NCBI RefSeq assembly: GCF_020906515.1
Contig: NC_085849.1
Location: forward strand, 310,001 to 374,000
From: Vanrija pseudolonga
Lineage: Eukaryota > Basidiomycota > Tremellomycetes > Trichosporonales > Trichosporonaceae
Length of the DNA: 64,000 nt
Direction of reading: 5' to 3'
Below are positions 7,259 to 53,326 of the stretch, piece by piece. Position 1 is the stretch's first letter; every line of letters begins with the position of its first letter. Both the position numbers and the translations under genes were made by a program. A model generated the notes under the pieces. It did not search any database. It was not told where the DNA came from and saw nothing but the letters and a program-made list of their open reading frames with translations.

Positions 7259-9368
7259 ATGCCGTCCCCGCGTGGACTCCCACCGGATGGTGTGGTGAAC
7301 TCTCCTCCACCGGTATCGACTTCCAAGCGTGAGTCGTCGCGTAGGCCGCCCTCACTCACCAGACCTAGCTCGTGCGTCGGTTCAGTACCGCAAGTCCAAC
7401 ACTTCGACGGCGACAGACCCCAGTTTCCTCAACCAGCCCCGCGACGATGGAAACTACTATACAGAGCCCCCTCCTGCACCGAGTGCCCTCTGTCCCCCAA
7501 CGACGCTCGCCGCGGCCAAGAACATTGCGCCGAGTATCGCCATCACGCCACAAACGTACCCCAGCAGCGGGTACTTCCCGCGGCAGTCCCAGCTGAGCGG
7601 GTACTCGACCGTGCCGTCCATGTACAGCGGCACAGACTGGGGCGTCGAGCCGGTCCTCGTGGACGGGAGAGTTATCGACATGCGTGTGAAGCACGACAGT
7701 CTGCTTACGAGTGGGAGCAGCTTGCCGAGCTTTGGTGCTGGCGTGCGCCAATCGTCAAACCTGGCTCACCCGTCCCCGCTGCAGCGAGCGAGTGGCACTA
7801 CAGGCCAGACAGTGCGTCCGCGCTTGTCCGCCCAAGACAGTATCCGCCATCGAGACTCGCACGGGTCGTCACGAACGCGATACACCGTCGCCCCACCGAC
7901 GCCGGCGCCGTCGCTCGCGAACGACACGCCGCGTCCGCCAACCCCTCCACCGAAGTCCCCGTCGCTCCGACCCCGCGACTCAGTCTCCAACCTGCGTCCC
8001 GAGAGCATCTCCACATCTGTATCCTCTCGAGTGGCCACTCCAACGCCGGATGCCCTCACACCTGCGGCGCCACCCTCGCCGTACGGTCCCGGGCCGGCGG
8101 CCTACCTCCAGATCGAGTGCCTCCTGCCCGAGTACGCGTGCTCCCATCCGACGCTGTACTCGTCCCCGCGCTTCGTCGATCTCTCAGGCACCGTGAACTG
8201 GATCAGCCCTCACAGGGTGGCGCGGACTACTGAGAGCGTCGACGCGGTATGGGCATCGCTGCGCAACGTTGTGGCCTTGCTGCATGTCGAGGCTGCTTCA
8301 CGGGCAGAGTATACCCCTCCATCGTCGTCCCGGCCTGGACAAGCCTATCCGGTTAGGCGGAGCCCAAAGGAAGTGCCGTGGGCCTCGTTACGCGCCGTGC
8401 TGGATACCAGCCCCCGCATCGTTTCACGGCCATCGTCACTACGAGAGAAGGTCACGAGCACAGTATACAAGGCCGCGAGCAAGTTCGCCCAGAGCACAAC
8501 GTCTCTCGATATGCGCGACAACCCCAAGCCTACCGCCGATGTCCCCCTTCGCTCTGAGACGGGGAGCATCGCAGTACCGATCTCCACCCCCATCAATTTC
8601 CCCAGCAGCCTCGTGAAGTCCGAGAACAAGAGACACGCAATCTACCTCCCCGGTCCGACCATCCCTATGCCGCGCGCACGCGACGCACCACCCAGCGTCC
8701 CCGAGCCAAGCCCGAGGATAGAGAAGAAACAGTGGGCCGCGATCCGCGCCACCCTCGCGGTGCTGGACGCACACTGCGCCACTGCCGCAGGGCTCGACGC
8801 GCAAATGGCCGACATTAACAACGGCACGCTGCCGTTCAACGTCGAGATGGCGGCCGACCCGGCCATCGACCTGGCTGTGCATATCGCCCTCATCCGCCTG
8901 CTGTGCTCCACCCTGCTCGAGTCGTATGCGGCGACCGAGTTCAACCGCCGTACGGGACGCTGCGTGCGCTCCCTTGTGCGGCACGTCGTTGCCGTTGGCC
9001 AAGAGTTTGGGGGAGAGTACGTCTACATTGAGCGTGTGCGGTCCCGCACCCTCGCCGAGTTGAAGGAGGCCGGGGTGGTGCTCCGCCCTGTTGGGCTGCC
9101 GGCGGCGGGACATGTCGTTCCGATGGTTGCGGCGAAGAGGAAGCCTCCCACAATCAGGTTTGCTAGCGATACCGCGACGACCAGCATCAAGTCTACAGAG
9201 ACGTTCGAAACGGCCAAATCTGACAACACGCCTAGTATCCTCAAGACGTCGGAGTCAAGGAGCAAGACAGCGTCGATGCTCTCAAAGCTGTCGCGCCGGC
9301 CGAGGCTCCCCGAAAGCTGGGGCGCCACCCCGAAGTCAGCCGCGCCAGTCCCACCACCCAAGCTATAA
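7259..9368 (+). CDS. Two-module family member D (unknown function)
   Basis: Exon 1 is 7259-7328. The GTGAGT intron ends at the TAG at 7366-7368 (40 bp, CTCAC branch); an alternative acceptor six bases earlier keeps the same frame. Exon 2 runs to 9368, giving about 689 residues. The N-terminal module reads YGPGPAAYLQIECLLPEY, then GTVNWISPHRVARTTESVDAVW, clearly parallel to gene C (NWVNPSPERTVESVAQVW). The C-terminal module begins KKQWAAIRATLAVLDAHC and includes an LLESYAATEFNRRTGRCVRSL helix run. Linkers are Pro/Ser/Thr rich, and the last 60 residues are basic and disordered. C and D are the closest pair in the cluster and probably a tandem duplication. Confidence 0.8.
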
Positions 9369-9458: not shown

Positions 9459-10526
9459 CTAATGCTCTATGATACTAACGCCCCTGAGGCCGGCCTCGAG
9501 CCCGCGGCCAAGCTCAGCGAGGACGCGCGCGAGCCCGCGCACCAGGCCGCGGAGCTCGCGGCGCTCCTCGACGGAGCCAGGCAGGCGGCGGACCCAGGCG
9601 TACACTTCGCGGCGGAGGACAGCGAGGTAAGCCGTCCGCTGGGCCGCGAGCGCGGCGAGCGTGGTGGCGGGGAGGATGTGGCGCGTCGTTCCTGCCTCGA
9701 TCTCGGTCATGAGGAGGTCGAGCCGGACATATGTTGCCGCGAGGGCCGAGATGGGCTCGAGGCCTGCCAGCGCGGTGGTGACAGGGTCGACTGGTGCCGG
9801 TGCTGCTGCTGGTGCGGTATGGCGTGGCGGGCCCGGCCGGATAGCGGACAGTGGCCGCGCGTACGGGTGGTGGTGGTGGCAGCTGGCGGGCGTCTCGTAG
9901 CTCGGGTACAGCCGCTTCGGCGTGAACGAGGGCACGGGGAGCGAGAGGCTTGAAACACTTGGGAGACTGGCGGCGGGTGGGGTCGGGGGCGTCTCAGGCT
10001 CGGGCGACGTGCTGGGCGAGGTGGCGCGGGACGTCGATGCGGAGGTGGCCGCGGAGCTCGAACTTGATGTGAGCGCCGAGCTTGACGGGCCAGCAATGAT
10101 GCACGTCTCGAAGCGCACGCTCGAGTCGACACGACTCTTGCCTACGGTGGTACGCATCGGTCCAGGCCGGCGGAGTGTCGGTGTCCCCAGAGGCACCCTG
10201 GTGGGCGGCGGTGGCGGCAATGGCAACGGCATAACAGCCCTGGCCCGCGCCTCGGCCTCCCAGCGCAGCACCTCGCGCCGCACGCCGTCGAGGTACATGG
10301 GCAGCTGGGTAAGCGTCGCCACGACGTCGATCGCCGGGCGCGGGGGGTACGTGACCAGCGGCACGCGGACGGTCAGGCTCAGTCCGCTGGGCGGGGGGAG
10401 GCGGACCGCGAGGGTGATCGCGCGCTGTTGCTGCGCCGGTGGCGGCGGCGGCGGCGTCGCCGGTGTCGCTGTTGGTGTGGGGGGCCGGGTGCTCGTTTCG
10501 GTCGGTGTCGGTTCAGGCGTCGTCAT
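9459..10526 (-). CDS. Two-module family member E (unknown function)
   Basis: Intron-less, 355 residues, convergent with gene D (90 bp between the stops). The N-terminus is a Thr/Pro tract. The N-module is RAITLAVRLPPPSGLSLTV followed by the helix DGVRREVLRWEAEARARAV. A Pro/Ser linker follows. The C-module starts at ALAGLEPISALAATYVRLD and contains AQRTAYLAVLRREVYAWVR, LRGLVRGLARVLAEL and a GVSIIEH terminus. The arrangement LR-x-x-VY...P-x-S...LVxxxxxxL recurs in member F. No targeting signal is visible. Confidence 0.75.
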   Translation of the reverse strand: MTTPEPTPTETSTRPPTPTATPATPPPPPPAQQQRAITLAVRLPPPSGLSLTVRVPLVTYPPRPAIDVVATLTQLPMYLDGVRREVLRWEAEARARAVMPLPLPPPPPTRVPLGTPTLRRPGPMRTTVGKSRVDSSVRFETCIIAGPSSSALTSSSSSAATSASTSRATSPSTSPEPETPPTPPAASLPSVSSLSLPVPSFTPKRLYPSYETPASCHHHHPYARPLSAIRPGPPRHTAPAAAPAPVDPVTTALAGLEPISALAATYVRLDLLMTEIEAGTTRHILPATTLAALAAQRTAYLAVLRREVYAWVRRLPGSVEERRELRGLVRGLARVLAELGRGLEAGLRGVSIIEH

Positions 10527-11642: not shown

Positions 11643-12737
11643 TCATGTGTATTCGAGCCGCACGCCATCGAGCTGCGTCTCAAACGGCGCACACAGCGCC
11701 TCGACACACTTGACCAGGCCCTCGACGCTGTCGTTCAGCCGGGTCTGGTAGAACACGCTCTCGGGGAACGTCTGGCGGAAGGTATACACGCGCTCGCGGA
11801 GCAAGTACAGAAACGCGGCGCGGTAGCACGCCTTGCGCTCCGTGTCCGCCGCGCGCTCCTTCTCGCGCTCGTCGTCGCTGTCTGAGTCGTCGGGCGCGTG
11901 CACCTGCGCCTCCCCGCGCGGGCCGTACGTCTTGTAGCTGTATGTCGGGGCGCACATGGTCGTGTCGTACATTCTCAGACGGATACACAGGTCGTCGAGC
12001 CAGCTGGCCATCTGCCGCAACGTGTGCAGCTTCGCCAGCAGCTTGTCGCGTGATCGCGGGGTCGAGAGGGCGACAGGTCGCGGCGCGGGGCGCGGTGTCC
12101 GCAGCGGCGGGATTGTCGACGGCGACAGCGGCGAGAGCGGGAACGTCGCGGTGTGCTCCGCCGGGTGGGGGATGCCGCGCTCCTCGTTCCACTTACGTGC
12201 CCGTTCTTTCCGGTTGGCAGTCTGCACCTCCCCCTCCCAGCGCTGCAGCTCGAACCCGACGGCGGACAGCGTCTCCGCCAGCTCCATGTGCAGGGTGCGT
12301 ACGAGCCCCGGAGGTCGGGACTTGGGGTTGACAAAGTCGGCTGCTGGGAGGCGGACGCGCGCGACTATCGTCTCGGACTCCTCGTGCGCCGTCCATATGT
12401 GGGTGCAGAGCGTCACCACGCCCCCGGGGATATGGGCCGCTTTCGGCGCTGGCTCGGGCGCAGCCGGCTCAGCGGGCACCGAGAGGCTCGGGTGCACGTT
12501 GTGCGACCGTGGTCGTCTCGGAGGAAAGGGGCGCGGTAGCGGGTCGGGGAGCAGCGTCGCTGCGAGGGCCGAGTAGCTGAGGTTGAGCGGCGGCGGCGGG
12601 TGTCGCTGTGCCAGGAGCCTGTTGCCCGTCGCCGGCCCCGCCGTGCTCGTTACTGTCGTCGTGGTCGTTATTGTCGTTATTGCGGTCGTGGGTGCGGTCG
12701 TGGTCGTGGTCGTGGTCATTGTCTTTGTCGTAGTCAT
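11643..12737 (-). CDS. Two-module family member F (unknown function)
   Basis: Intron-less, 364 residues. The first 37 residues are a Thr-rich tract encoded by GTC/GTT-type triplet repeats (12640-12737). The N-module runs from GVVTLCTHIWTAHEESETI to the helix ETLSAVGFELQRWEGEVQ. The C-module begins DKLLAKLHTLRQMASWLDD and ends with AAFLYLLRERVYTFRQTFP, VEGLVKCVEALCAPFE and GVRLEYT. The terminal FP-x-S-x-F...LVxxVxxL...PFE signature also occurs in member C (DSFPRASF...FVEAVNVLFEPF), which ties the minus-strand members to the plus-strand ones. Function unknown. Confidence 0.75.
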   Translation of the reverse strand: MTTTKTMTTTTTTTAPTTAITTITTTTTVTSTAGPATGNRLLAQRHPPPPLNLSYSALAATLLPDPLPRPFPPRRPRSHNVHPSLSVPAEPAAPEPAPKAAHIPGGVVTLCTHIWTAHEESETIVARVRLPAADFVNPKSRPPGLVRTLHMELAETLSAVGFELQRWEGEVQTANRKERARKWNEERGIPHPAEHTATFPLSPLSPSTIPPLRTPRPAPRPVALSTPRSRDKLLAKLHTLRQMASWLDDLCIRLRMYDTTMCAPTYSYKTYGPRGEAQVHAPDDSDSDDEREKERAADTERKACYRAAFLYLLRERVYTFRQTFPESVFYQTRLNDSVEGLVKCVEALCAPFETQLDGVRLEYT

Positions 12738-30293: not shown

Positions 30294-30692
30294 CTAGACA
30301 ACAAGGACACAGCCCACAGCCATCCACACGAGCGCAGCGAGGCCCAGCGTCGCCCGGCGCCCAGCCCCGTTCATACAGCTCATACTGGTGACGGTCTTGT
30401 TCTCGTTCGCGCACGCGTCCCACGACTCGACCTGCGCAGTGAAGTTGGGCTTGAAGAGCGCCGGGTCGCGGGGGATAAGGAGGCACTGGTGCGTGTTGTT
30501 CGGCTGCTGGCTGGGCGGGAGGTATGGCATCGACGTGTTGGCCGTGTACACTGCGCCGTGGAGGCGCAGGCAGCACACGTCGGTGATGTCGTCCGAGTTG
30601 GTTGTGCATGCTGCGTAGCCTGGAGGAAGGGGGATGGGCCAGTACCCGCCTACCATGACGGAGGTGTTGGAGTAGCTTTGGGATGGGGCCAT
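30294..30692 (-). CDS. Array gene 1: small Cys-motif C-tail protein
   Basis: 132 residues when started at the CACAATGG ATG (30692); two ATGs 36 and 42 bp upstream are in frame but poorer in context. Cys pattern C29, C40-C41 (TTNSDDITDVCC), HQCLL, DACANE, MSCMN. It has five N-x-S/T sequons. GAGRR precedes the hydrophobic end ATLGLAALVWMAVGCVLVV. There is no hydrophobic N-terminus, so no classical secretion signal. Closest to array gene 2 (same YWPxPLPxGYAxC start). Function unknown. Confidence 0.8.
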   Translation of the reverse strand: MAPSQSYSNTSVMVGGYWPIPLPPGYAACTTNSDDITDVCCLRLHGAVYTANTSMPYLPPSQQPNNTHQCLLIPRDPALFKPNFTAQVESWDACANENKTVTSMSCMNGAGRRATLGLAALVWMAVGCVLVV

Positions 30693-31174
30693 TGTGGTGT
30701 TGGAGGGTGGCGTGGGGACAATGTCCATGGGCATCCAAAGGCGCTACTTATACCGCTCACGCCGGGCTCACTGATCCATAAAGACGGTGCCCGGCAACCA
30801 CTCGGGTCAAGTCCCGACGAAGCACGAAGAAGACGATGCCTCCCGGACGAGGCATGTGCCGCCACCGCCTCAGATAGTCGGCATACACGGCGCCACAGAG
30901 TGAGGCGGGCAGTGCCGCCCCACTCTGGCCCCCAACTGCACATGTGTGCACCAAGCAGCACCCAGCTCCTCGGAAACCGGAAAGCTCCTCCCATGGACAA
31001 CTCGGCTACCTATCTCATAACCCCCCAGAAGCCTTCCCAGCTGAACGCACTGTCAACGGCACAGCATCAACGCGCGTTCGTCCGTGCTGACGTGTTGCCC
31101 GCAGGGGGGAGGGCGCGGCCAACGATCAAAGCATTACAACTGCATTATCATATGACTATCCTCCACTCAACTCC
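30693..31174. promoter_or_regulatory. Spacer with TATA element of array gene 1
   Basis: TATAAGTAGCGC on the minus strand at 30741-30752, about 50 bp before the ATG. Near-identical elements precede array genes 5 and 7. The rest of the spacer shows no gene. Confidence 0.5.
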
Positions 31175-31558
31175 CTACACAGCAAGGACGAAGCCCACAG
31201 CGACCCAAACGAGTCCGACGAGCCCGAGGGAAGCCTTCCGCCCAGCGCCGTTTATGCACCGATTCATGCCGTAGCTGCCATTGGTGCGGTTCTCGTTGGT
31301 GCAGATCGACCACGCCTCCTCCGTGCCCACAAAGTACGGCTGGGAGTCCTTGGGCGGGATGATGAGGCAGTGATGCCAGTCCATTGCAGGCGGCTGGCCA
31401 AACGCGGCGGGGTTGAACTCGTAGATCGCGCCGTTGAGCTTCCGGCAGCACGCGTCCGTCACCGTGTCGTTGTCCGTGTTGCAGACCGCGTAGCCGGCCG
31501 GGAGGGGCACGGGCCAGTACGGGCCGGTGACGTTGCTCGAGTTGTGGGGAAAGTTCAT
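31175..31558 (-). CDS. Array gene 2: small Cys-motif C-tail protein
   Basis: 127 residues from the ATG in AGCACAATGAAC. It starts MNFPHNSSNVTGPYWPVPL, then AVCNTDNDTVTDACCRKLNGAIY. It has five sequons. The end is GAGRKASLGLVGLVWVAVGFVLAV, the cysteine of the tail replaced by Phe. Just upstream, GTAAGT...CCCTAG (38 bp) could be a leader intron with its acceptor four bases before the ATG. Confidence 0.8.
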   Translation of the reverse strand: MNFPHNSSNVTGPYWPVPLPAGYAVCNTDNDTVTDACCRKLNGAIYEFNPAAFGQPPAMDWHHCLIIPPKDSQPYFVGTEEAWSICTNENRTNGSYGMNRCINGAGRKASLGLVGLVWVAVGFVLAV

Positions 31559-32056
31559 TGTGCTAGGGGGTTGAGCATGATTGAAGCCTTCAGCACTTAC
31601 TTGTTCACTTGGTGTTGGTTGCTCGAGCGCGCTGAATTGCTGAAGAAGATAGGAAGCTGCTGGAATCGGCTTGGTGCCCCGCCGCCACTTTGCACATGAC
31701 TTAAGTACGCAACGCCACGGCGTCCCGAGCAGCGAGGACAATAGGCTCCGGATTAAGCCAAGTACCCCAGCCACCTCAACCATGCACGTCCCACGCTGCT
31801 GTATTGGATGAACGCGCAATGGCATAGGACGGTGGGGGAGAACGTGTCGCGCGACCACGGATCTCTCGCTGATTTTAGAACCTCGTGTTGGCTTGGCGGT
31901 GGTCAGTGCTTCCGGCCACCATCGGGCCGGCACGGTCTGCCATTGTTCGAGGCCCGCGCTCTGGCATGCTCTGCCCGATTGGGTGTGGCGTGAAGAGAAA
32001 GACACGGCCATCGCCGCTTACAACATGGAATACGATACCGAAATCCTTCCTACAGA
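31559..32056. other. Spacer between array genes 2 and 3, 498 bp
   Basis: Promoter and leader of array gene 2. A TTAAG-type element lies near 31700 on the minus strand. No other gene is seen. Confidence 0.4.
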
Positions 32057-32431
32057 CTAGAGCGCCAGCACACACCCAGCAGCGGCCCAAACGAGTACCA
32101 CCGCGCTGAGTGTTACTCGCCGCGAGCTGCCCGACGTACACCCGTACGACGAGCTGATGTTCGTCGCGAGCGTACACGCGCCCCACACCTTGTTCCGCGT
32201 CGTGAGGTCGTTGCTCCCGTTGCCTTGGAAGAGCAGGCAGTTGTGCCGGCTGATATCGGGCACGTCGTTGGGCAGGTTGCTCACCCACACCGCGCCACCG
32301 AGATGCGCGCAGCACGTGTCGGTTGCTGCGTCGGTATCGGTGTTGCATACTGATTGGCCTTGAAGTAAGGGTACGGGCCAGGTGGGGCCGAAGGAGACCC
32401 CTCTGCCGCGGGGGATGAGAGTGCTGGGCAT
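32057..32431 (-). CDS. Array gene 3: small Cys-motif C-tail protein
   Basis: 124 residues. The N-terminus is MPSTLIPRGRGVSFGPTWP. Core SVCNTDTDAATDTCCAHLGGAVW, then HNCLLFQG and WGACT. Only two sequons (NGS, NIS), fewer than its neighbours. Tail SSRRVTLSAVVLVWAAAGCVLAL. It is the most divergent of the subgroup formed by genes 1-4, but retains the full pattern. Confidence 0.78.
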   Translation of the reverse strand: MPSTLIPRGRGVSFGPTWPVPLLQGQSVCNTDTDAATDTCCAHLGGAVWVSNLPNDVPDISRHNCLLFQGNGSNDLTTRNKVWGACTLATNISSSYGCTSGSSRRVTLSAVVLVWAAAGCVLAL

Positions 32432-32808
32432 GTTGAGAGTTTGCGTGGCGGCTGTCGTTCGTTGGGTCGTGGGGTGATCGCCCCGACAAAGGACGCCGTC
32501 TTTTCTACCTCGCGTTTGGTGTCCGGAGGATGGCGTGCTATGCCCAAGTAATGATGCGTACGGCGCCGTGGCGGACATGATACCGTCATGCCGAGGCCTG
32601 TGCACGGCGTTGCATGTGGGTCTGCTCGGGTCGGCGCGGTAGGCAGCCACATTCGGAAATCCCACCTCCGCGAACCCGATGGTCGTCGGCTCGTGTTATC
32701 AGCTTCTTCCCAGTCTCCGACCGGAGTATCTTTACTGGCACTACGGGATCCGTCTCTATTCATGACAGGAAGCTAATGCCAGCCGTACTACATGCAAGCA
32801 AGTGGGGT
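32432..32808. other. Spacer between array genes 3 and 4, 377 bp
   Basis: No TATA element could be placed confidently. No gene is seen. Confidence 0.4.
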
Positions 32809-33186
32809 TCACACCGCCAAGACACACCCGATCGCGACCCAAACCAAGCCCGCAAGACCCAGCATTGCGCGCTTAGACGCCCCACTACCGGTCCTACACG
32901 AGACCGCGGTGCTGTTTCCACTTGATACGACGCACAAGCGCCAGTTCTCGGCGGTAACGTTGAGCAATTCGGAGGGGTGCCCCCGTTGTTGGAGCGGGAG
33001 ACAGTGGTGTCGGTTGACGGTCGGGTCGTCGCTGGTGTAGTTGGCGACGTAGAGCGCGCCGTGCAGCTGCCGGCAGCACGCGTCGGTCACGTAGTCGTTG
33101 TCGCAGGTGCAGATGAGTTGGTTGGGGAGGAGGAAGAGGCCGTCGGAGTGGGTGTAGCCCCTTGTACGGGCGAGGAGCGACGACAT
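32809..33186 (-). CDS. Array gene 4: small Cys-motif C-tail protein
   Basis: 125 residues from the ATG in AACACAATGTCG. Core ICTCDNDYVTDACCRQLHGALY has an extra cysteine two residues after the first. HHCLPL, RLCVVS and VSCRTG supply the later cysteines. Three sequons. Tail ASKRAMLGLAGLVWVAIGCVLAV. It lacks the YWPxPL segment of genes 1 and 2. Confidence 0.8.
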   Translation of the reverse strand: MSSLLARTRGYTHSDGLFLLPNQLICTCDNDYVTDACCRQLHGALYVANYTSDDPTVNRHHCLPLQQRGHPSELLNVTAENWRLCVVSSGNSTAVSCRTGSGASKRAMLGLAGLVWVAIGCVLAV

Positions 33187-33856
33187 TGTGTTTTGTTTGC
33201 GGGGGTGAGCTTGATGGTGGGTCGTGGCATTGTGGCATCCGGCATGGCGGAGCCTTTGTACCTCCCCACACCCGTCCCGGCACCTCCCTCCCTCCCAACC
33301 ATGCGCAGCTGATGACCACGGCACACCGGACAAAGGAGGAGAGCAATGAAGCCAAACAGGCCAATACCATGTCCGGTGGCGCGAGATATCGCCATCCCGA
33401 GGCCCGTGCGCGCCCGCCGCTGGCTGTGAGGCAGTGCGCCAAGCGCAGGTCGGTGCCACTGCCGGGGCGCCGGACCTCCGAGCGTGAGTGAGCTGGCAGC
33501 TTATCAGTCTGTGGGAGCGGTGACGAGCCAGGCTTGGCGCGGGCGGCCGTGGTCTCATGGTGGTAAACATGGGGTGGCGGAACGTCGGACGCATTGCCGA
33601 TCACCGTGCGCCACTCGCGTGATCCCCGTGTCCTACGAGCCAAGTCCGCCACCCGCGGGTCGGTATGGATCGGTTGCTCATGACGGTTCAGCGGGTGGAG
33701 TGGAGCGCAAGGCAGTGGCGATGAGGACCTGCGCTGTTGGAGCAGATCACCAGTCCTGCATCATGCGGTGCTAGCGCGCGGCACAATGCTGTGCCGCGAA
33801 GTGTCGCCTCAACCTCTCTACCGGGCAGTCTGGGTATCACATTCTCCTCTCGCCGT
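33187..33856. other. Spacer between array genes 4 and 5, 670 bp
   Basis: Largest gap within the intact part of the array. Frames on both strands show no array motif, so no hidden copy is called. Confidence 0.45.
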
Positions 33857-34291
33857 CTACAGCACAAGTACACACCCGGCGGCGACCCACACGAGCCCCA
33901 CCACGCCGATAGCGACCCTCCTAGCGCTCGAGTCCTTCGTGTAGCACATCGAGATGGCCCCTCCCAAGCCTTGCGCTGCACGCCGGGAAGCGCATTTGTA
34001 AAATGCCTCACGCGAGACGTTGGCGTTGGTCTTGTTGGTCGTGTAGATTAGGCACTGGTGTTGCCCGGGGCCGTTGAAGGTCGTCGAGTTGTCCACCCAC
34101 ACCGAGCCGTTCTGCGCCGCACAGCACGCGTCGGTGACGTTCCACAGGCCCGCGGCGCACACGGTCTGCCACTCCTGCAGCGGGTCCTTCCACTCCGGGC
34201 CTTGGACGGCGCCCGGGTCGCCGTTGACGGTCGGTACCGTCGAGCCGGGATGCCATGCGCTGCTGGTAGATGAGGGGGCGGAGGACGACAT
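33857..34291 (-). CDS. Array gene 5: small Cys-motif C-tail protein
   Basis: 144 residues from the ATG in CACAATGTCG. It carries VQGPEWKDPLQEWQTVCAAG and NVTDACCAAQNGSVWVDNST, nearly shared with array gene 6, so these two form a recent pair. QHQCLIYTTN, YKCASR and SMCYTK give the later cysteines. Five sequons. Tail SARRVAIGVVGLVWVAAGCVLVL. Confidence 0.82.
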   Translation of the reverse strand: MSSSAPSSTSSAWHPGSTVPTVNGDPGAVQGPEWKDPLQEWQTVCAAGLWNVTDACCAAQNGSVWVDNSTTFNGPGQHQCLIYTTNKTNANVSREAFYKCASRRAAQGLGGAISMCYTKDSSARRVAIGVVGLVWVAAGCVLVL

Positions 34292-34340
34292 TGTGTTTGG
34301 GGAAGAAGAGTGAGTGAGAGACGCTAGATGCTGCGCAGGC

Positions 34341-34352
34341 GCGCTACTTATC
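34341..34352 (-). promoter_or_regulatory. TATA-like element of array gene 5
   Basis: GATAAGTAGCGC on the minus strand, about 50 bp before the ATG; it differs by one base from the element before array gene 1 (30741-30752). Confidence 0.5.
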
Positions 34353-34512
34353 ACTTGGAGCGGGATGGTTGTCGGGTGGCTGAAACAGCCCATGTACCAT
34401 CCTCCGCTTGCTCCGGTGTCGGCAACCTCGGCTCGGGCAACATGTCAACAACCACCCCTAACGCTGAAGCCTCACTGTCCATCGCTCCGAGCTGATACAA
34501 CCACTCGCTATT

Positions 34513-34953
34513 CTACAAGACAAGCACGCACCCAGCAGCGACCCACACGAGTGCAGCGATGCCCATTGTCGCCGTGCGCCTGCCACCAGACTTGTTCTTC
34601 GGGTCGTTGCTCCCGCACATTATGACGGACCCACCACCCGGTGTCTTGCCAACGCAGTTGATAAACGCGTCGCGTGCCGCTTTGGCGGTATCCTCGGTCG
34701 TCGTGTTGATCATGCAGCTGTGCTGCCCTGCGCCGACGAGTATCGTCGAGTTGTCCGCCCACACCGACCCGTCCTGCTGCGCACAGCACAGGTCGGTGAT
34801 GTTGTACATGTTCGTGGCGCACACTGTCTGCCAATCGAGCAGCGGGTCCTTCCACTTCGGCCCCTGGACACTGTTTGGCTTGCCATTGCCGCCCACCGTC
34901 GTGTTCTGTGGCCCGGCGGCGCTCATGGTGTTGGTGGTTGCGATTACGGACAT
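34513..34953 (-). CDS. Array gene 6: small Cys-motif C-tail protein
   Basis: The frame has three in-frame ATGs (34998, 34953, 34926). A TATA-like TATAACTCG near 35014 is too close to the first, so 34953 is chosen (146 residues); 34926, in a CACCATGAG context, is also plausible. Core VQGPKWKDPLLDWQTVCAT and NITDLCCAQQDGSVWADNST pair it with gene 5. Four sequons. Tail GRRTATMGIAALVWVAAGCVLVL. Confidence 0.78.
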   Translation of the reverse strand: MSVIATTNTMSAAGPQNTTVGGNGKPNSVQGPKWKDPLLDWQTVCATNMYNITDLCCAQQDGSVWADNSTILVGAGQHSCMINTTTEDTAKAARDAFINCVGKTPGGGSVIMCGSNDPKNKSGGRRTATMGIAALVWVAAGCVLVL

Positions 34954-35178
34954 GGGGGAGTTTGTCGTGAGAAGGGGATGAGTATGCGAGGATGACATGA
35001 AGGCGACGAGTTATATCTGGAGCGGTGGCGATGCGAGCACCAACAATTGCATTCCTCGAGGATCATCGCTATCGTCTGCCAAACAGCCTTGGCTCTTGCA
35101 CAATGTAAGCATAGTCTCAATCTGAAACCATACCTGTGCATGACTTGGAATAGATGTAAATGCAGTCCACCCACCATC

Positions 35179-35679
35179 CTACAATGCAAGCGCGCACCCA
35201 GTAGCAACCCACACCAGCCCCAGCAAGCCCAGCGCGGTCCTCCTCCTCGACGCGGCAGACCTCGGCGCGGCAGACTTCGACCCGTTCTTCGATCCGTCGA
35301 CACACATAGCAATGCTGCGGTTCCCCTCGCTACCAGCGTTGAAAACGCACGTAACGAACGACTCTCGGGTGGCGTTGGCGGTCGTCGTGTTCGTGAAGAA
35401 GAGGCACATTGGTTGTGGGCGGCTGTAGGAGGGGTCGTTGGTGGGCACCCACAGCGCGCCGTTGAGTGCAGCGCAGCATCTGTTGGTGGCGCTGTACACG
35501 CCTGCCGCGCACACTATCTGTCCTGGCGCGACGGGGCCACCCCACCCAGGGGTGATGACCTGGTTCGGGGTGCCGTCTGGTCCGATGACTCCATAGCCTG
35601 TCGCGGACGGCTTCGGCGCAGTGACGGTGACGCCGGTACCGTTGGTGTATGTTGCTACTGAGGCTGAAGACGAGGACAT
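35179..35679 (-). CDS. Array gene 7: small Cys-motif C-tail protein
   Basis: 166 residues, the longest copy. The N-terminal Ser/Thr/Val stretch is followed by IGPDGTPNQVITPGWGGPV, then GQIVCAAGVYSATNRCCAAL, PMCLFFTNTTTANATRESF and two more cysteines. A basic Ser/Ala/Lys/Arg insert (about 15 residues, SKNGSKSAAPRSAASRRR) precedes the tail TALGLLGLVWVATGCALAL. Five sequons. It belongs with genes 8-10. Confidence 0.82.
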   Translation of the reverse strand: MSSSSASVATYTNGTGVTVTAPKPSATGYGVIGPDGTPNQVITPGWGGPVAPGQIVCAAGVYSATNRCCAALNGALWVPTNDPSYSRPQPMCLFFTNTTTANATRESFVTCVFNAGSEGNRSIAMCVDGSKNGSKSAAPRSAASRRRTALGLLGLVWVATGCALAL

Positions 35680-35711
35680 TGTGTATTGCGTTGTGGGGAA
35701 GCAGCAGGGTT

Positions 35712-35722
35712 CGCTGCTTATA
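35712..35722 (-). promoter_or_regulatory. TATA-like element of array gene 7
   Basis: TATAAGCAGCG on the minus strand about 40 bp before the ATG, matching the elements of array genes 1 and 5 at all but one base over the shared length. Confidence 0.5.
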
Positions 35723-35880
35723 TCTTCGTCGTCATTTGCATCGTAGTGGGTCGCCAAGAGGCCAAGAATGAGCTGTGTTGACCCCGATGAAATGAAACAC
35801 GGCGAAGCAGCCACACGGGCATGCTGAAGCAACCGCCGTTCGTGCCTCGGTCCAGCGAAGCCAGTCTGGCATGCGATGCA

Positions 35881-36315
35881 TCACAATGCAAGCACCGAGC
35901 CAACAGCGACGAGCAGCATCCCGATGCCCACCACAGTCCGTGCGGCGCCAGAGTGGATCTTACACCCCACGATGGGGTTCACACCGTCCACACCGTACGC
36001 ACAACCAGTGAACGCGTCGCGCGTGGCGTTTGCCGTCGTGGCATTCGAGAAGAGGAGGCACATGTGCTGCCGAGAGCCGAACGTGGTGGCGGCGTACGCG
36101 TCGTCGCCTACCCACAGCGCACCGTGCAGCCTGGCACAGCACATGTCCGTGACGTTGTACACGCTCGCGGCGCACACCGTCTGGCCTGCGTACATCGCGC
36201 CGGGCCAGGAGGCGGGATACATCTGCGCTGGGTCCCCGTTGGGGCCGAGCCCGGTCGCCGTGGGCGTCGGTACTGGGGGCGAGGTGAGCGAGAGGGATGC
36301 TGTGCCGTTGTTCAT
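35881..36315 (-). CDS. Array gene 8: small Cys-motif C-tail protein
   Basis: 144 residues from the ATG in ACACCATGAAC. GLGPNGDPAQMYPASWPGAM, GQTVCAASVYNVTDMCCARL, RQHMCLLFSNATTANATRD. Later cysteines in TGCAYG and VGCKIH. The tail is AARTVVGIGMLLVAVGSVLAL: one basic residue and no cysteine, the least conserved end among the intact copies. Four sequons. Confidence 0.82.
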   Translation of the reverse strand: MNNGTASLSLTSPPVPTPTATGLGPNGDPAQMYPASWPGAMYAGQTVCAASVYNVTDMCCARLHGALWVGDDAYAATTFGSRQHMCLLFSNATTANATRDAFTGCAYGVDGVNPIVGCKIHSGAARTVVGIGMLLVAVGSVLAL

Positions 36316-36544
36316 GGTGTGGGTGGTTGGGGGAGAAGTCGAGGGCACGGCCGTTGTGTTAAGTACTGGTGTTGCGGGCTTGGCATGGCCTCGTCCAGGT
36401 GAGGGAGGGGGTAAGGCACTCGCCACACCCGGCGTAACCAGCAGGCGTTGCGTCTCGGGCTTGTCCAAGCTACATGTATCCCGACGTTGCATACTGTGGA
36501 ACCCAGCGGCACCAGACACTACCCGACCCGAGCACGTAAACCAC

Positions 36545-37000
36545 CTAAACCGCAAGCACGCACCCAACAACAGCCCACACGACCGCCACTGTAACCACCG
36601 CCCGCGCGCGCGCGGAGCTCTTCTGCGTTTCACACCCCACGATGACGTTGTCGCCCGTCCCAGGCCGGGAAGCGCAATTCTTGAACGCTGTGATCGTCGC
36701 GTCCGCCGTGGTGGTGTTCGAGAAGAAGAGACACGCGTGCTGTCGTGTGGGGGGCATGCCGGCGGCGCCCGCGGGGTCGGGCACCCACAAGGCGCCGTGC
36801 AGCTGTAAGCAGCACGCATCGGTCACGTTGTAAAGCCCTGCCGCGCACACCACCTGTCCGACGTTCATGGGTCCGGGCCAGATGACGCTGGACTGCGCAC
36901 TTGGGCTGCCGTTTGGCCCGAAGTCGCCGAGGCTGGGTGAGGCTGAGGCCGAGGCGGACGCGGATGCTGGCGGGGTGGCGAGGGAAGTGCTGGGGTTCAT
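36545..37000 (-). CDS. Array gene 9: small Cys-motif C-tail protein
   Basis: 151 residues from the ATG in CCACAATGAAC. The N-terminus has an Ala-Ser repeat (SASASASAS). GQVVCAAGLYNVTDACCLQL, then HACLFFSNTTTADAT; later cysteines in KNCASR and VGCETQ. Tail RARAVVTVAVVWAVVGCVLAV. Very close to genes 7, 8 and the relic at 37685. Confidence 0.82.
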   Translation of the reverse strand: MNPSTSLATPPASASASASASPSLGDFGPNGSPSAQSSVIWPGPMNVGQVVCAAGLYNVTDACCLQLHGALWVPDPAGAAGMPPTRQHACLFFSNTTTADATITAFKNCASRPGTGDNVIVGCETQKSSARARAVVTVAVVWAVVGCVLAV

Positions 37001-37242
37001 TGTGGTGTGGGTGTTGGGTGGGATGTGGTGCCATGGCGAGGTGGGTTAAGTAGTGCTCCCGTTGGGCGGCTGGAATCGGTAGTTGGCGTTGCCGGCATCA
37101 ACCCACCCCGCCCCACTTGTGCAAGGGATGGAGAGCCAAACTTGTTTCAGAACTGTGCCTACAGTAATTGCATTGGGTGCTCGCTCCAGGATGCACACCA
37201 CAGAGATGGTGTTGCTGAGCGCAATCCCCTTGTCCAATGCGT

Positions 37243-37434
37243 CTACAGAGCGAGAATGCACCCCGCCACGACCCACACCATCCCAAGTGCCACCACGGCT
37301 CGTCTCCGTCCCGAGTTTTGGGCGGAGTGCGCTGTCCCTTGGCCGGAGGCGGCGATTGTGTCGTTGTTGGTCTCGGCCGAGTAGAGGAACGTCGTGGGAG
37401 GCGTCGAGCCGTTGTCGACGACACTGTCGCTCAT
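37243..37434 (-). pseudogene. Array relic: C-terminal part only
   Basis: A 63-codon frame with its own ATG preserves FLYSAETNND, matching CLLYSNxTTAN of the intact copies, and the tail GRRRAVVALGMVWVVAGCILAL. Every upstream cysteine and the region between the C-[LM] motif and the tail are lost. It could still be translated as a tiny tail-bearing peptide, but as a family member it is decayed. Confidence 0.65.
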
Positions 37435-37684
37435 CAAGAAATCGCCTGATCCCCAGCGGTGGTACGTGACACGCTCCTCCTTGGCAAGGCCCTCGCTCGA
37501 CATCACACCCCTCAGCGCCGAGGGGGAGTGCGACCCAGTCGGCACGCCGAGCAGCGCAAGCCACCAGCGCAAAGCGGCCCACAACAAGGCCCCGAACCCG
37601 AGCGCTGGTGGCGATGGCGGCGGGCCCACGCTCCAGAGGATCATGCAGCTCGAGACCCAGTTCGGGCTGCCCATGTCAAAGAGA
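37435..37684. other. Foreign-looking segment between two array relics
   Basis: About 250 bp with no resemblance to the array is open on both strands. The plus frame across 37394-37732 reads, for example, PTLQRIMQLETQFGLPMSK, which looks more protein-like than usual shadow frames. It may be an inserted piece of another gene. No identity is offered. Confidence 0.35.
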
Positions 37685-37975
37685 TCAGACATACAGTCGG
37701 CAAAACGTCTTATTGGCCGTAGTGACGTTTGAGTAGAGGAGACACATGTGCTGTCTCGCGCCGCTGTGGGTGAGAGCGTACGCGTTGTCGCCCACCCACA
37801 TGGCGCCGCTGCCCAGCTCGCAGCACAGGTCGGTGACGTTGTACAGGCCTGCCGCGCACACTGCTTGTCCTGGGACCAGAGGCTGTGGCCAGGAGGGACC
37901 GAACATCATGTTCGGGTACCCGTTTGGCGGCCACGGGGCGTCGCCTGGCCACAGGGGTGAGGGCGTGTCGAGCAT
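37685..37975 (-). pseudogene. Array relic: N-terminal part only
   Basis: Starts at an in-frame ATG (37975). It keeps GYPNMMFGPSWPQPLVPGQA, VCAAGLYNVTDLCCELGSGA and HMCLLYSNVTTANKT, then leaves the family pattern and stops after FCRLYV. The last two cysteines and the hydrophobic tail are absent. It belongs with genes 7-9. Confidence 0.7.
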
Positions 37976-38664: not shown

Positions 38665-39983
38665 ATGACGACCACCAACGGCAACACCAACGCCAGCACC
38701 GCCGTGCCGAACCCCGGCCTGAGCCTCGAGCTCAAGGGCAAGATCGCGTTCGTGACCGGCGGCGGGCGCGGCATCGGGCTGGCGATCACGCAGCAGCTTG
38801 CGAAGGGTGAGTCGCGTCCCGGCACGGATAGGCCCCAGCTGACGCCCGCCGCAGCCGGCGCAACTGTCGTGATTACGTGGAACTCGCGCGACGCGACCCC
38901 CGTCGCGGAACAGGTGGCCGCCGAAACCGGCTCGACGGTGCTCGCGTACCACTGTCCCGGGGAGCAGAGCGCCGTGGTGAACGAGGTCGTCGACCGCGTC
39001 TCGCGCGAGGTCGGCGAGGTCGACTTTGTCGTGTGCAATGCCGGCGTGTGCAAGCACCAGGACACGGTGGACATGACTGATGGTGGGTGGGAGGGGAAGA
39101 GCGAGCTCACGCCCGCGTGCAGACGACCTCGCCTTCGTCATGCAGAACAACCTCTTCGCGCCGCTGTACCTTTCGCGCGCGTTCGTGCGCCACTGGCTCG
39201 GCCTCAAGACGGCCGTTAGCCAGCAGTCAAGCTACCCACCCCGGCCAGAGTACCGGACCCTCGACAAGAAGATCATCTTCATCTCGAGCATTAGCGGGGT
39301 TGTGAGCATGACCCCGCAGAACCAGGTGTCGTATAATTCGAGCAAGGCGGGGTTGACTATGGCCGCCAAGGTGAGTAGCGCTGCCCCATATCCCAGTCTC
39401 GTTGCCCCCTCCTCTCTCCCTCGCTCTGCTCGCTACTCATCTCGCCCGCCCACCCACCCTCGAGCGTTGCTCGCAGATGAGTGGCCCACCCACCCACCCT
39501 GCTGCGCGAGCAACACGTCGCCCGCCCACCCGCCCTGCTGGCGCGAGCGATATCATGCCCGCCCACCCACCCCTATGCGCTGCGCGCAAGAAGTTATGCC
39601 ACCACCCACCCCTCCACCGCGTGCCGCCTCCCCGCTAACATTACAGTCTCTGGCCGGCGAGTGGGCTCAGTATGGAATCGCCGTTAACGCCCTTTCCCCG
39701 GGCTATGTCTCTACCGACATGACATCTTGCGACCCTGCGTGGATGCAAAAGTGGAGCGACATGACCCCCTTTGGACGGTTCGCGCAGCCCGCCGAGCTGG
39801 GCAACATGGTCGTGTTGATGTGTTCTGGGCTCGCGAGCCGGTTCTTGACGGGCCATGACTTGGTGATGGACGGGGGTGAGTACATACGAGGCAGCGCCAG
39901 CTGCCGAGCATGCTGTCTGCTACTGCTGGCTTGGAGGTATGGTGCAGGATTCTGACGCGACCACAGGCTACACTGTTTACTAG
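38665..39983 (+). CDS. Short-chain dehydrogenase/reductase
   Basis: Five exons: 38665-38806, 38855-39082, 39123-39370, 39647-39875 and 39967-39983 (the last codes only the end of GGYTVY plus stop); 287 residues. Introns are 48, 40, 276 and 91 bp. Classical SDR features: TGGGRGIG at 31-38 for NAD(P) binding, CNAG, catalytic Ser near 181 (ISSISG), Y194 and K198 in SYNSSKAG, and PGYVSTDM. The end, DLVMDGGYTVY, is typical of sorbose/mannitol-type NADP reductases (Sou1, mannitol dehydrogenase). It is probably a cytosolic polyol or ketose reductase; the substrate is inferred from family likeness. It sits just upstream of a Zn2Cys6 regulator gene. Confidence 0.88.
39438..39630 (+). repeat. Degenerate minisatellite inside SDR intron 3
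   Basis: About five imperfect units of roughly 38-40 bp, each with a CGCCCGCCCACCCACCC core followed by GCTGCGCGAGC-like sequence. The units swell this intron to 276 bp against a norm of about 50 bp. Confidence 0.6.
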
Positions 39984-51362: not shown

Positions 51363-53326
51363 ATGCGCGTCTTGCCCGTCCTCCTAGCAGCCCGCGTGGC
51401 GTCAGCCCACTTCGTCGGCGTGCGCCAAATCACCACCGACAACATAACCGGCAGCGACGTCCAGATCTCCATCATCCAGTCCTCGACAACGACCGAGGCG
51501 TCCTCGGCCGGCATCACGACGGACATCTGGACGACACTACCCCCGAGCAGCGACATCATCTCTTCGACCGACATCTCATCCGCCACAACCACCGGCACCA
51601 GCAGCAGCCAGGAGCCGACGGGGTCGCCCGTCATCGTGCCCTCCGCCAACGTGACAAGCACGAGCACGTCGTCCTCTGTCTCGGCGCCGGCGAACACGAC
51701 GACAGTCACCCACCCCGACCCCAAGAACGGCGACGACACGTGGGATGTGGGCGGCGACGACATCCCCCTCCCGCCCGCGATGCGCGCCGACGAGATGGTC
51801 CTCACGCTCGCGTACACTGCCAACGCGAACCAGACGCAGTGCAGGGCCATGGCGGCGGACTTTGCCAGCGGCGCAAGTACCGCGGTACGCCGGCACCTCG
51901 CTGGCGTCGACTACGTGCGCCGCCGCCGTCGCGGCCTCATCCCCCAGCTCTGCCTGCCGGCAGTGTACACCATTCAGGCGACGGTGCACTGGGTCATGCC
52001 GGCCGGCAAGGAGCGCGCCACGTGGGTGGACAGCAAAGCGTGGCAAGAGCAGCTCAAGCTCACGCGCGCCCAACTGAAAACGATCAACGCCGCGCTCAAC
52101 ATCAACGAGTACTGGATCTGGACTGGGCCCGGCGCAGAAAAGTTCACGGATAAGCCAAAGTCGGATAGTAAACTCGAATGGGCCAAGGCGTGGGTTGGGA
52201 TGGCGAAGAAAAGGATCGGGACAGAGGCGTACAAGCACCTCAGTGGGTTGAGCCTACCTGCCTGCGTGCACCATGGCACTGACACACCGCAGACATCTTC
52301 GTCGTCGAGGACGCGGGCGAGACAGCGGCCGCGTACGCCAATTTCCCCGGCACCGCTGCGCTCAAGTCGACCCCTGATGCGCTGGTGATGAGCGCGTACA
52401 CCGTGCTGAACAACTTCGGGGGCCTGCCAGAGTGGACGGTCAACAACGACGAGTGGGGCACGACGCTCGCCCACGAGATCGGGCACTGGCTCGGCCTGTA
52501 CCATATCCACCAGGGCGGGTGCGCGTCCAAGACGGGCGACTACGTGTCCTCGACGCCGCAGTACGGCCGGTCCGAGAACCCAGACTACAGCAAGCGGTGC
52601 GACGGCACGCCGATGGGCGGCAAGCGCGGGCTCAACGAGCACAACCTCATGTCGTATGCGTCCGGCCGCACGCGCAGCGACGGCTTCTTCACTCGCGACC
52701 AGGCGGTGCGCGCGTACGTGGGGTACATGCTGCGCCGGGAGAACAAGTTTGGCAACGACGTCACGGACGACACGAAGAAGTTTGTCGGCAACTGCCAGCA
52801 GAAGCTCCGGCGTGACGCGTCGCCAGACGCCAAAGCCGAAGCCGAGCGCATCGTCGTCCCGCGCGACCTCGCGCCGCTGTCCCGCCGCCAGACGACCGAC
52901 CTGCTAGCCAAGTACTGCGAGCGCACCGACCTCGTGGTGGAGAACCACGACTTCTCAGAGTACGCCATCAAGGGGCTGTACAACGCCGACAGCCCGCCGC
53001 TGCCGGAGCAGCCGGCCGCGCCGGCGCTCCCGCCCGTGTCGAGCGCCGAGGTGCAGCAGCAGCCCGAGGCAGGCGGCGAGACGGGCTCCAACGTCGACGA
53101 CGTCTACGCCCATGTCAAGCAGCAGTACGACCAGACGGGCAGCGTCACGGCCGAGAACAACAAGCCAGAGGTCCCGCCCGACCTCCAGAACACGGGCACG
53201 TCGGGCGATGCTGGCGGTGGCGGCGGCGGAGCGGCGTCACCGAGCTCCAAGCCCAAGGGGAGTGCAGGGCATGTTGCGCCTGGAGTGCTCTTGCCTCTGG
53301 TGGCGCTCGTCTTCGCGTTGTGGTAG
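51363..53326 (+). CDS. Secreted, probably GPI-anchored M43-like metalloprotease
   Basis: Exons 51363-52242 and 52293-53326 (intron 50 bp); 637 residues. A short signal peptide (MRVLPVLLAARVASA) is followed by a Ser/Thr-rich region of about 110 residues. The metzincin zinc site is H354, E355, H358, H364 in HEIGHWLGLYH, with the Met-turn in HNLMSYASGR, typical of pappalysin-like M43B fungal proteases. C-terminal to the catalytic domain is an unusual extension of about 200 residues, Pro/Gln/Gly rich. The end, GHVAPGVLLPLVALVFALW, is a hydrophobic GPI-attachment type tail with small residues before it. It is likely displayed at the cell wall or membrane. RRRRR and KLRR sites might allow propeptide cleavage. 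Confidence 0.88.

Follow-up and report, generated by a model that had tools for sequence, protein, structure and literature searches.

A tandem family of small six-cysteine proteins with GPI-like tails and no detected signal peptide in Vanrija pseudolonga

In the tail-anchored proteins, the C-terminal segment alone suffices for targeting to the endoplasmic reticulum (ER), and the CYSTM cysteine-rich tail modules are small proteins with no signal peptide and a hydrophobic C-terminus. The CFEM domain contains eight cysteines, and the KP6-like proteins are secreted through a signal peptide. The locus compared here with these systems is a tandem array of small cysteine-containing proteins in Vanrija pseudolonga, of a genus of the Trichosporonales, located at positions 30294-37975, on the minus strand, of a stretch of 64,000 nucleotides (nt) that is referred to below as the window (C1:310001-374000). 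The genome amounts to 24.87 Mb in nine contigs, and the array lies on chromosome 1.

The signal for the attachment of a glycosylphosphatidylinositol (GPI) anchor consists of small residues at the attachment site, a spacer, and a hydrophobic C-terminal tail (PMC2571997). Tail-anchored proteins are defined by a single C-terminal hydrophobic segment in the absence of a signal peptide (PMC8629386), and effector families with the KP6 fold exist among the small secreted proteins of fungi (PMC9632046, PMC10942635). Judged from its sequence, the array is a real tandem family that appears to contain a contradiction, in that a domain that looks extracellular is joined to a GPI-like tail, and yet no signal for entry into the secretory route is visible. 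On the preferred reading, which has about an even chance of being right, the proteins form an orphan family, apparently confined to Vanrija, whose small members are held at the surface by the C-terminal tail; the tail may also be the signal for entry into the ER.

The array comprises ten homologous units, nine of them intact frames of 124-166 amino acids (aa), and one a frameshifted gene. When unit u2 (numbered as in the table) is compared with the other nine, the expect values (E) range from 2.4e-33 to 1.9e-4, far past chance. The original prediction had recognized the nine intact frames on one strand, but had counted eleven units, the last two of which correspond to the C- and N-terminal portions of u10. 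This unit is considered to be one gene, and not two units, because protein P0012 of a close relative holds the same protein as a single, uninterrupted frame of 244 aa. In u10 and P0012, the cysteine domain is separated from the tail by approximately 100 additional residues, with a second hydrophobic stretch, and this type is a longer variant of the family. Two ectopic copies, A (P0014, LOC62_01G000816) and B (P0015), are present in the same genome at C1:2155609-2157035, 1.8 Mb from the array. A weak match at C3:2909942 (E 0.55) was inspected and rejected as a further copy.

In the nine intact open reading frames (ORFs), the guanine-cytosine (GC) content is 0.558, 0.562, and 0.815 at the first, second, and third codon positions, respectively, and the third-position value, against 0.594 between the units, agrees with what genes would show. 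The intergenic gaps from u5 to u9 measure 201-252 nt, and a candidate TATA-like element is found 43-89 nt upstream of the ATG in six of the ten units. The counts of promoter words shared upstream of the units never exceeded the highest in the shuffled sequences. The frameshift in u10, as assembled here, would be expected if the array were a decaying set of non-functional duplicates with no present role. This is highly improbable, however, given that nine of the ten units are intact, the third-position GC is gene-like, the six cysteines are retained in all of the copies, and the partners in the close relative are 76-86% identical, with open frames.

The anatomy of the family was determined in a set of 21 proteins, that is, the nine array proteins, A and B, two from V. 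albida, and eight from the close relative, leaving out of the counts the 76-aa fragment P0013 (E 0.046), three NCBI models that are fused or extended (P0001, P0002, and P0016), and P0019, which was found later. Six cysteines are present in the same order in all 21 proteins, forming six invariant columns in all 20 rows of alignment A5, with P0015 in addition. The arrangement is C-x10-CC, then a fourth cysteine with L or M directly after it, and finally two more cysteines ahead of the tail, with an almost invariant Asp preceding the CC and an almost invariant His preceding the fourth cysteine. A stalk 17-146 residues long precedes the domain, with S, T, P, N, G, or A making up 40-79% of it. In all of the proteins, the tail consists of 18-20 residues that include no D, E, K, R, N, Q, H, or P, and ends at the stop codon, while a triad of small residues is found at -23 to -26 from the C-terminus (judged by a simple rule in all 21). 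Basic residues usually lie between the triad and the tail, with a basic doublet in most members, and the tail contains at most one cysteine, the remainder being found in the soluble domain. The motif described originally, C-x(9-12)-CC with C-[LM], usually two further cysteines, a basic doublet, and a hydrophobic tail running to the stop, was borne out, with C-x10-CC throughout.

Two AlphaFold2 runs, with u5 and u2 as lead sequences, predict a beta-alpha-beta-beta-alpha-beta arrangement, with a helix across the tail and, in the second run, an extra short helix. The mean predicted local distance difference test score was 76.3 (u5) and 76.4 (u2), and the predicted template modelling score was 0.65 in both cases, although the two runs are not independent, because most of the sequences in their alignments are the same. 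In the structure comparison, the KP6 killer protein was a weak match to one model, with a Z score tied with that of unrelated folds, and was absent from the best 50 rows for the other model.

The apparent absence of a signal peptide is the oddest feature of the array, and was overlooked in the original prediction. Within the first 45 residues of each intact array copy (nine in all), the most hydrophobic stretch of 11 averages no more than 1.45 on the Kyte-Doolittle scale, compared with 2.32-2.89 in the tails. The region upstream of the ten units was scanned for a signal-peptide exon (donor GTRNGN, acceptor YAG, intron of 35-160 nt, junction at most 45 nt inside the frame) without a positive control of known introns, and no spliced model was recovered for six units, while the other four scored 1.51 at most. 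On the same measure, the presumed signal peptide of another gene in the window, with its frame starting at 51363, scores 1.92. In u6 and u9, the interval from the last in-frame stop to the ATG contains no AG, and the sole AG in u1 lies within that stop. The short gaps from u5 to u9 and the position of the TATA-like elements leave scant room for a leader exon. Unspliced hydrophobic ATG frames do exist upstream of several units (u4 and u2, for example), but no spliced model links any of them to an array frame.

These results bear directly on the possibility that the array encodes ordinary GPI-anchored secreted proteins, with a signal-peptide exon that has been overlooked by all of the gene models. 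Everything except the N-terminus fits a GPI protein, the NCBI model of u2 (LOC62_01G000155, P0016) has an upstream extension through two predicted introns, and the ectopic copies permit spliced models with a hydrophobic start, scoring 1.98 in A and 2.92 in B, and upstream of P0019, the relative of B, there is a hydrophobic stretch in the same frame. The strong conservation between B and P0019 begins only at the ATG used here, however, and the upstream region is weakly conserved, with a stop and a gap. Together with the low scores in the array and the lack of an AG acceptor in u6 and u9, this makes an overlooked exon decidedly improbable. The array copies have no detectable signal peptide, either unspliced or in the spliced models, and the situation in A and B is less clear.

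At the opposite end of the chain, the C-termini conform, by a simple rule, to the layout of a GPI signal in all 21 proteins, and the cysteine domain looks extracellular, which agrees with the surface-like character proposed originally. The motif N-x-[ST] occurs 104 times in the 21 proteins, 77 of them as NxT, against 32 occurrences of the reversed motif. Under the stricter definition of the sequon (no P after), there are 28 in the stalks, compared with 12.0 in shuffled sequences (maximum 22 in 2000), and 72 in the cores, compared with 23.8 (maximum 38), so that the sequons exceed the shuffled sequences two- to threefold. When only the 11 V. pseudolonga proteins are counted, the values are 16 versus 6.1 (maximum 14) in the stalks and 35 versus 11.5 (maximum 21) in the cores. 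The kinship of the 21 proteins inflates this test, but does not obviously explain the excess. No such excess was found in the eight longest kinase-match frames of this genome (seven sequons versus 13 reversed), some of which possibly do not follow the true gene frame.

Several observations weigh against the surface reading. According to one source on the GPI signal, every reported GPI protein has a signal peptide (PMC2571997). One sequon site, directly ahead of D-x-CC, is found in 14 of the 21 proteins, and the remaining sites shift between copies. The excess is also absent from three secreted-type frames of this genome (five versus 14 reversed), so it is no general mark of secretion here; it is peculiar to this family and, alone, is no proof of secretion. 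Between orthologues, the conservation of the tail matches that of the core (76 of 90 residues versus 295 of 372, summed over five pairs, without u8/P0005), which exceeds the needs of a signal that is cleaved off, and the basic residues ahead of the tail would suit the anchor of a protein with its N-terminal part in the cytosol.

The main rival to the surface reading draws on these same points. The array proteins may be tail-anchored membrane proteins, anchored permanently through a post-translational route such as the guided entry of tail-anchored proteins (GET), with a cytosolic cysteine domain that binds a metal or a partner through the cysteines and the conserved Asp and His. The single C-terminal hydrophobic segment and the lack of a detected signal peptide agree with the definition of this class (PMC8629386), and the basic residues, the conservation of the tail, and the near-invariance of the Asp and the His are all as this reading would have them. 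It is nevertheless rather unlikely, as the excess of sequons in the stalk and core speaks against it, and so do the small triad preceding the tail and the fact that nothing follows the tail before the stop, in all 21 proteins. A separation of GPI signals from tail anchors by the hydrophobicity of the tail was attempted, giving a mean of -0.95 over the 21 tails, which was judged to be uninformative.

If the preferred surface reading is correct, tandem amplification would have preceded the split between V. pseudolonga and its close relative, and the cysteine domain would be lumenal, and later extracellular, with disulfides and N-glycans. The tail would act like a GPI-attachment signal, being cut off in the ER as the anchor is put in place, which would hold the domain at the plasma membrane or the wall. 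As nothing else in the protein resembles an ER signal, the tail must then also serve for entry, and would deliver the completed chain to the ER post-translationally. A C-terminal segment would then have to pass a domain of approximately 110 residues into the lumen. The array may, in turn, supply the cell with several related surface domains, perhaps, as a guess, for contact with its neighbours. It is doubtful, though conceivable, that the full form of this scheme applies, with a dual C-terminal signal that takes a leaderless chain into the ER lumen after translation and afterwards gives way to a GPI anchor, making an N-terminal signal peptide unnecessary, and a tethered domain that is perhaps a KP6-type killer fold on the surface of the producer itself.

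Three profile searches of the protein collection, each scoring the 8000 candidates that shared most words, returned 13, nine, and four proteins, the V. albida proteins being listed in the first but missed in the second and third. Among the matches listed, all are from V. pseudolonga, V. albida, or the 'lgn' contigs of the close relative, which are inferred to be a single organism, and there are at least 12 members in V. pseudolonga (ten plus two), at least two in V. albida, and at least nine in the close relative. In the latter, six members go with a contig of 10857 bases, one with a contig of 3685 bases, and two with a contig of 23593 bases, while the 76-aa fragment goes with one of 16315 bases. 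A Vanrija-only range is thus provisional. The lineage-specific system with a variable copy number proposed originally agrees with this range, but the numbers listed are not true copy numbers.

Five members of the array pair one-to-one with proteins of the close relative: u1/P0009 (77% identity), u2/P0017 (86%), u6/P0008 (76%), u9/P0006 (77%), and the N-terminal part of u10/P0012 (86%). Ectopic copy A pairs with P0018 (87%), while the paralogues within the V. pseudolonga genome are at most 55% identical. In a tree of 22 rows, without P0019, all six pairs are sisters, with starred support for the u2, u9, u10, and A pairs, and bootstrap and Shimodaira-Hasegawa-like approximate likelihood ratio values of 92/99 for the u6 pair and 90/83 for the u1 pair. 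The two V. albida proteins cluster together (93/87), inside a clade with u5, u6, and P0008 (88/96). Given that the orthologues exceed the paralogues in identity and form sister pairs, u1, u2, u6, u9, u10, and A are older than the split from the close relative, which weakens the rapid evolution suggested originally. Among the proteins returned, u3, u4, u5, u7, and u8 have no clear partner, nor do P0005 and P0011 in the close relative, and some turnover is possible among these five array members.

Public gene models depart from the arrangement of the array at several points. LOC62_01G000157 (P0002) joins u6 and u7 into one protein, and LOC62_01G000158 (P0001) joins u8 and u9. Each of these fused models, in the region 34513-37000 of the window, loses one hydrophobic tail, apparently through spurious introns. 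The array illustrates surface-type genes whose public models merge neighbours. Pipelines for surface proteins, in addition, usually demand a signal peptide, and would overlook these proteins. Should the domain be lumenal, they would provide a natural test case for a C-terminal signal that alone drives both translocation and GPI attachment; should they be tail-anchored, the result would be smaller, but the family would remain new and specific to its lineage, with a six-cysteine domain not described before.

Table 1. Units of the array, in window positions; the first coordinate of each row is also the C-terminal end of one of the ten copies of repeat family D3.
Unit	Position	Strand	State	Other features
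u1	30294..30692	-	intact, 132 aa	in-frame upstream ATG at 30734, giving 146 aa; TATA-like element at -60
u2	31175..31558	-	intact, 127 aa	lead sequence of second structure model
u3	32057..32431	-	intact, 124 aa	
u4	32809..33186	-	intact, 125 aa	one additional cysteine
u5	33857..34291	-	intact, 144 aa	P0003; lead sequence of first structure model
u6	34513..34926	-	intact, 137 aa	in-frame upstream ATGs at 34953 and 34998
u7	35179..35679	-	intact, 166 aa	
u8	35881..36315	-	intact, 144 aa	
u9	36545..37000	-	intact, 151 aa	
u10	37243..37975	-	frameshifted longer gene, spread over two frames as assembled here	N-terminal part 37685-37975; C-terminal part within 37243-37692

Elsewhere in the window, two adjoining large ORFs at 4154-6859 (+) and 7329-9368 (+) are homologous to one another (E 3e-12), and had no Pfam match when scanned. 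A second adjoining pair, at 9459-10526 (-) and 11643-12737 (-), is also mutually homologous (E 2e-6 over 59 aa), and the pairs may reflect a further local expansion, likewise old, in some unknown family. A 37-nt tandem repeat of 2.4 copies, at 39484-39572, lies within the region of a short-chain dehydrogenase gene (38665-39955), and is probably intronic. The putative M43 metallopeptidase gene at 51363-53326, in which the frame at 51363 and the M43-peptidase frame at 52385 are assumed to be one gene, has a signal-peptide-like start and a GPI-like C-terminus, in contrast with the leaderless array. On contig C8, kinase-like matches at 78530-79446 (-) and 96508-97424 (+), in mirror order and with nearly equal scores, suggest a large inverted repeat on this small contig.

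As in the original prediction, which recognized no named family, the array proteins had no convincing sequence match in Pfam, NCBIfam, or PDB. The Pfam scans covered ten array proteins up to E 1 and 14 core sequences up to E 10, although the HMMER filters discard most matches above about 0.1, and neither the CFEM nor the CYSTM profile is among the families listed for these sequences. No title or abstract among the matches listed in the open-licence literature on Vanrija and its tandem arrays, on GPI and cysteine-rich families of the Trichosporonales, on leaderless GPI or tail-anchored fungal proteins, and on the hydrophobicity of GPI signals describes the family.

CFEM is the UniRef name of the V. 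albida members, and the CFEM proteins resemble the array family in being cysteine-rich, of surface type, and with an Asp adjoining the cysteines, but the array proteins have six cysteines and no match to the Pfam CFEM profile. The CYSTM modules differ from the family, in which the cysteines are in the soluble domain, with at most one in the tail, and which has no match to their profile. No sequence match links KP6 to the family, which, in contrast with the KP6-like secreted proteins, has a C-terminal tail and no signal peptide that could be found. The tail-anchored proteins of the GET type are like the nine intact array copies in having one C-terminal hydrophobic segment and no signal peptide found, and unlike the family in that its N-terminal part is sequon-rich and lumenal-looking, with six cysteines; P0012 also departs from the single-segment layout in its additional hydrophobic stretch. 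As a signal peptide was sought in the array and not found, the proteins are only likened to the GPI-anchored fungal surface proteins, and not classified among them. The latter, which have the signal peptide found in none of the ten array units, share with the family the small triad, the short spacer, and the hydrophobic tail running to the stop (PMC2571997), in addition to a cysteine domain rich in sequons.

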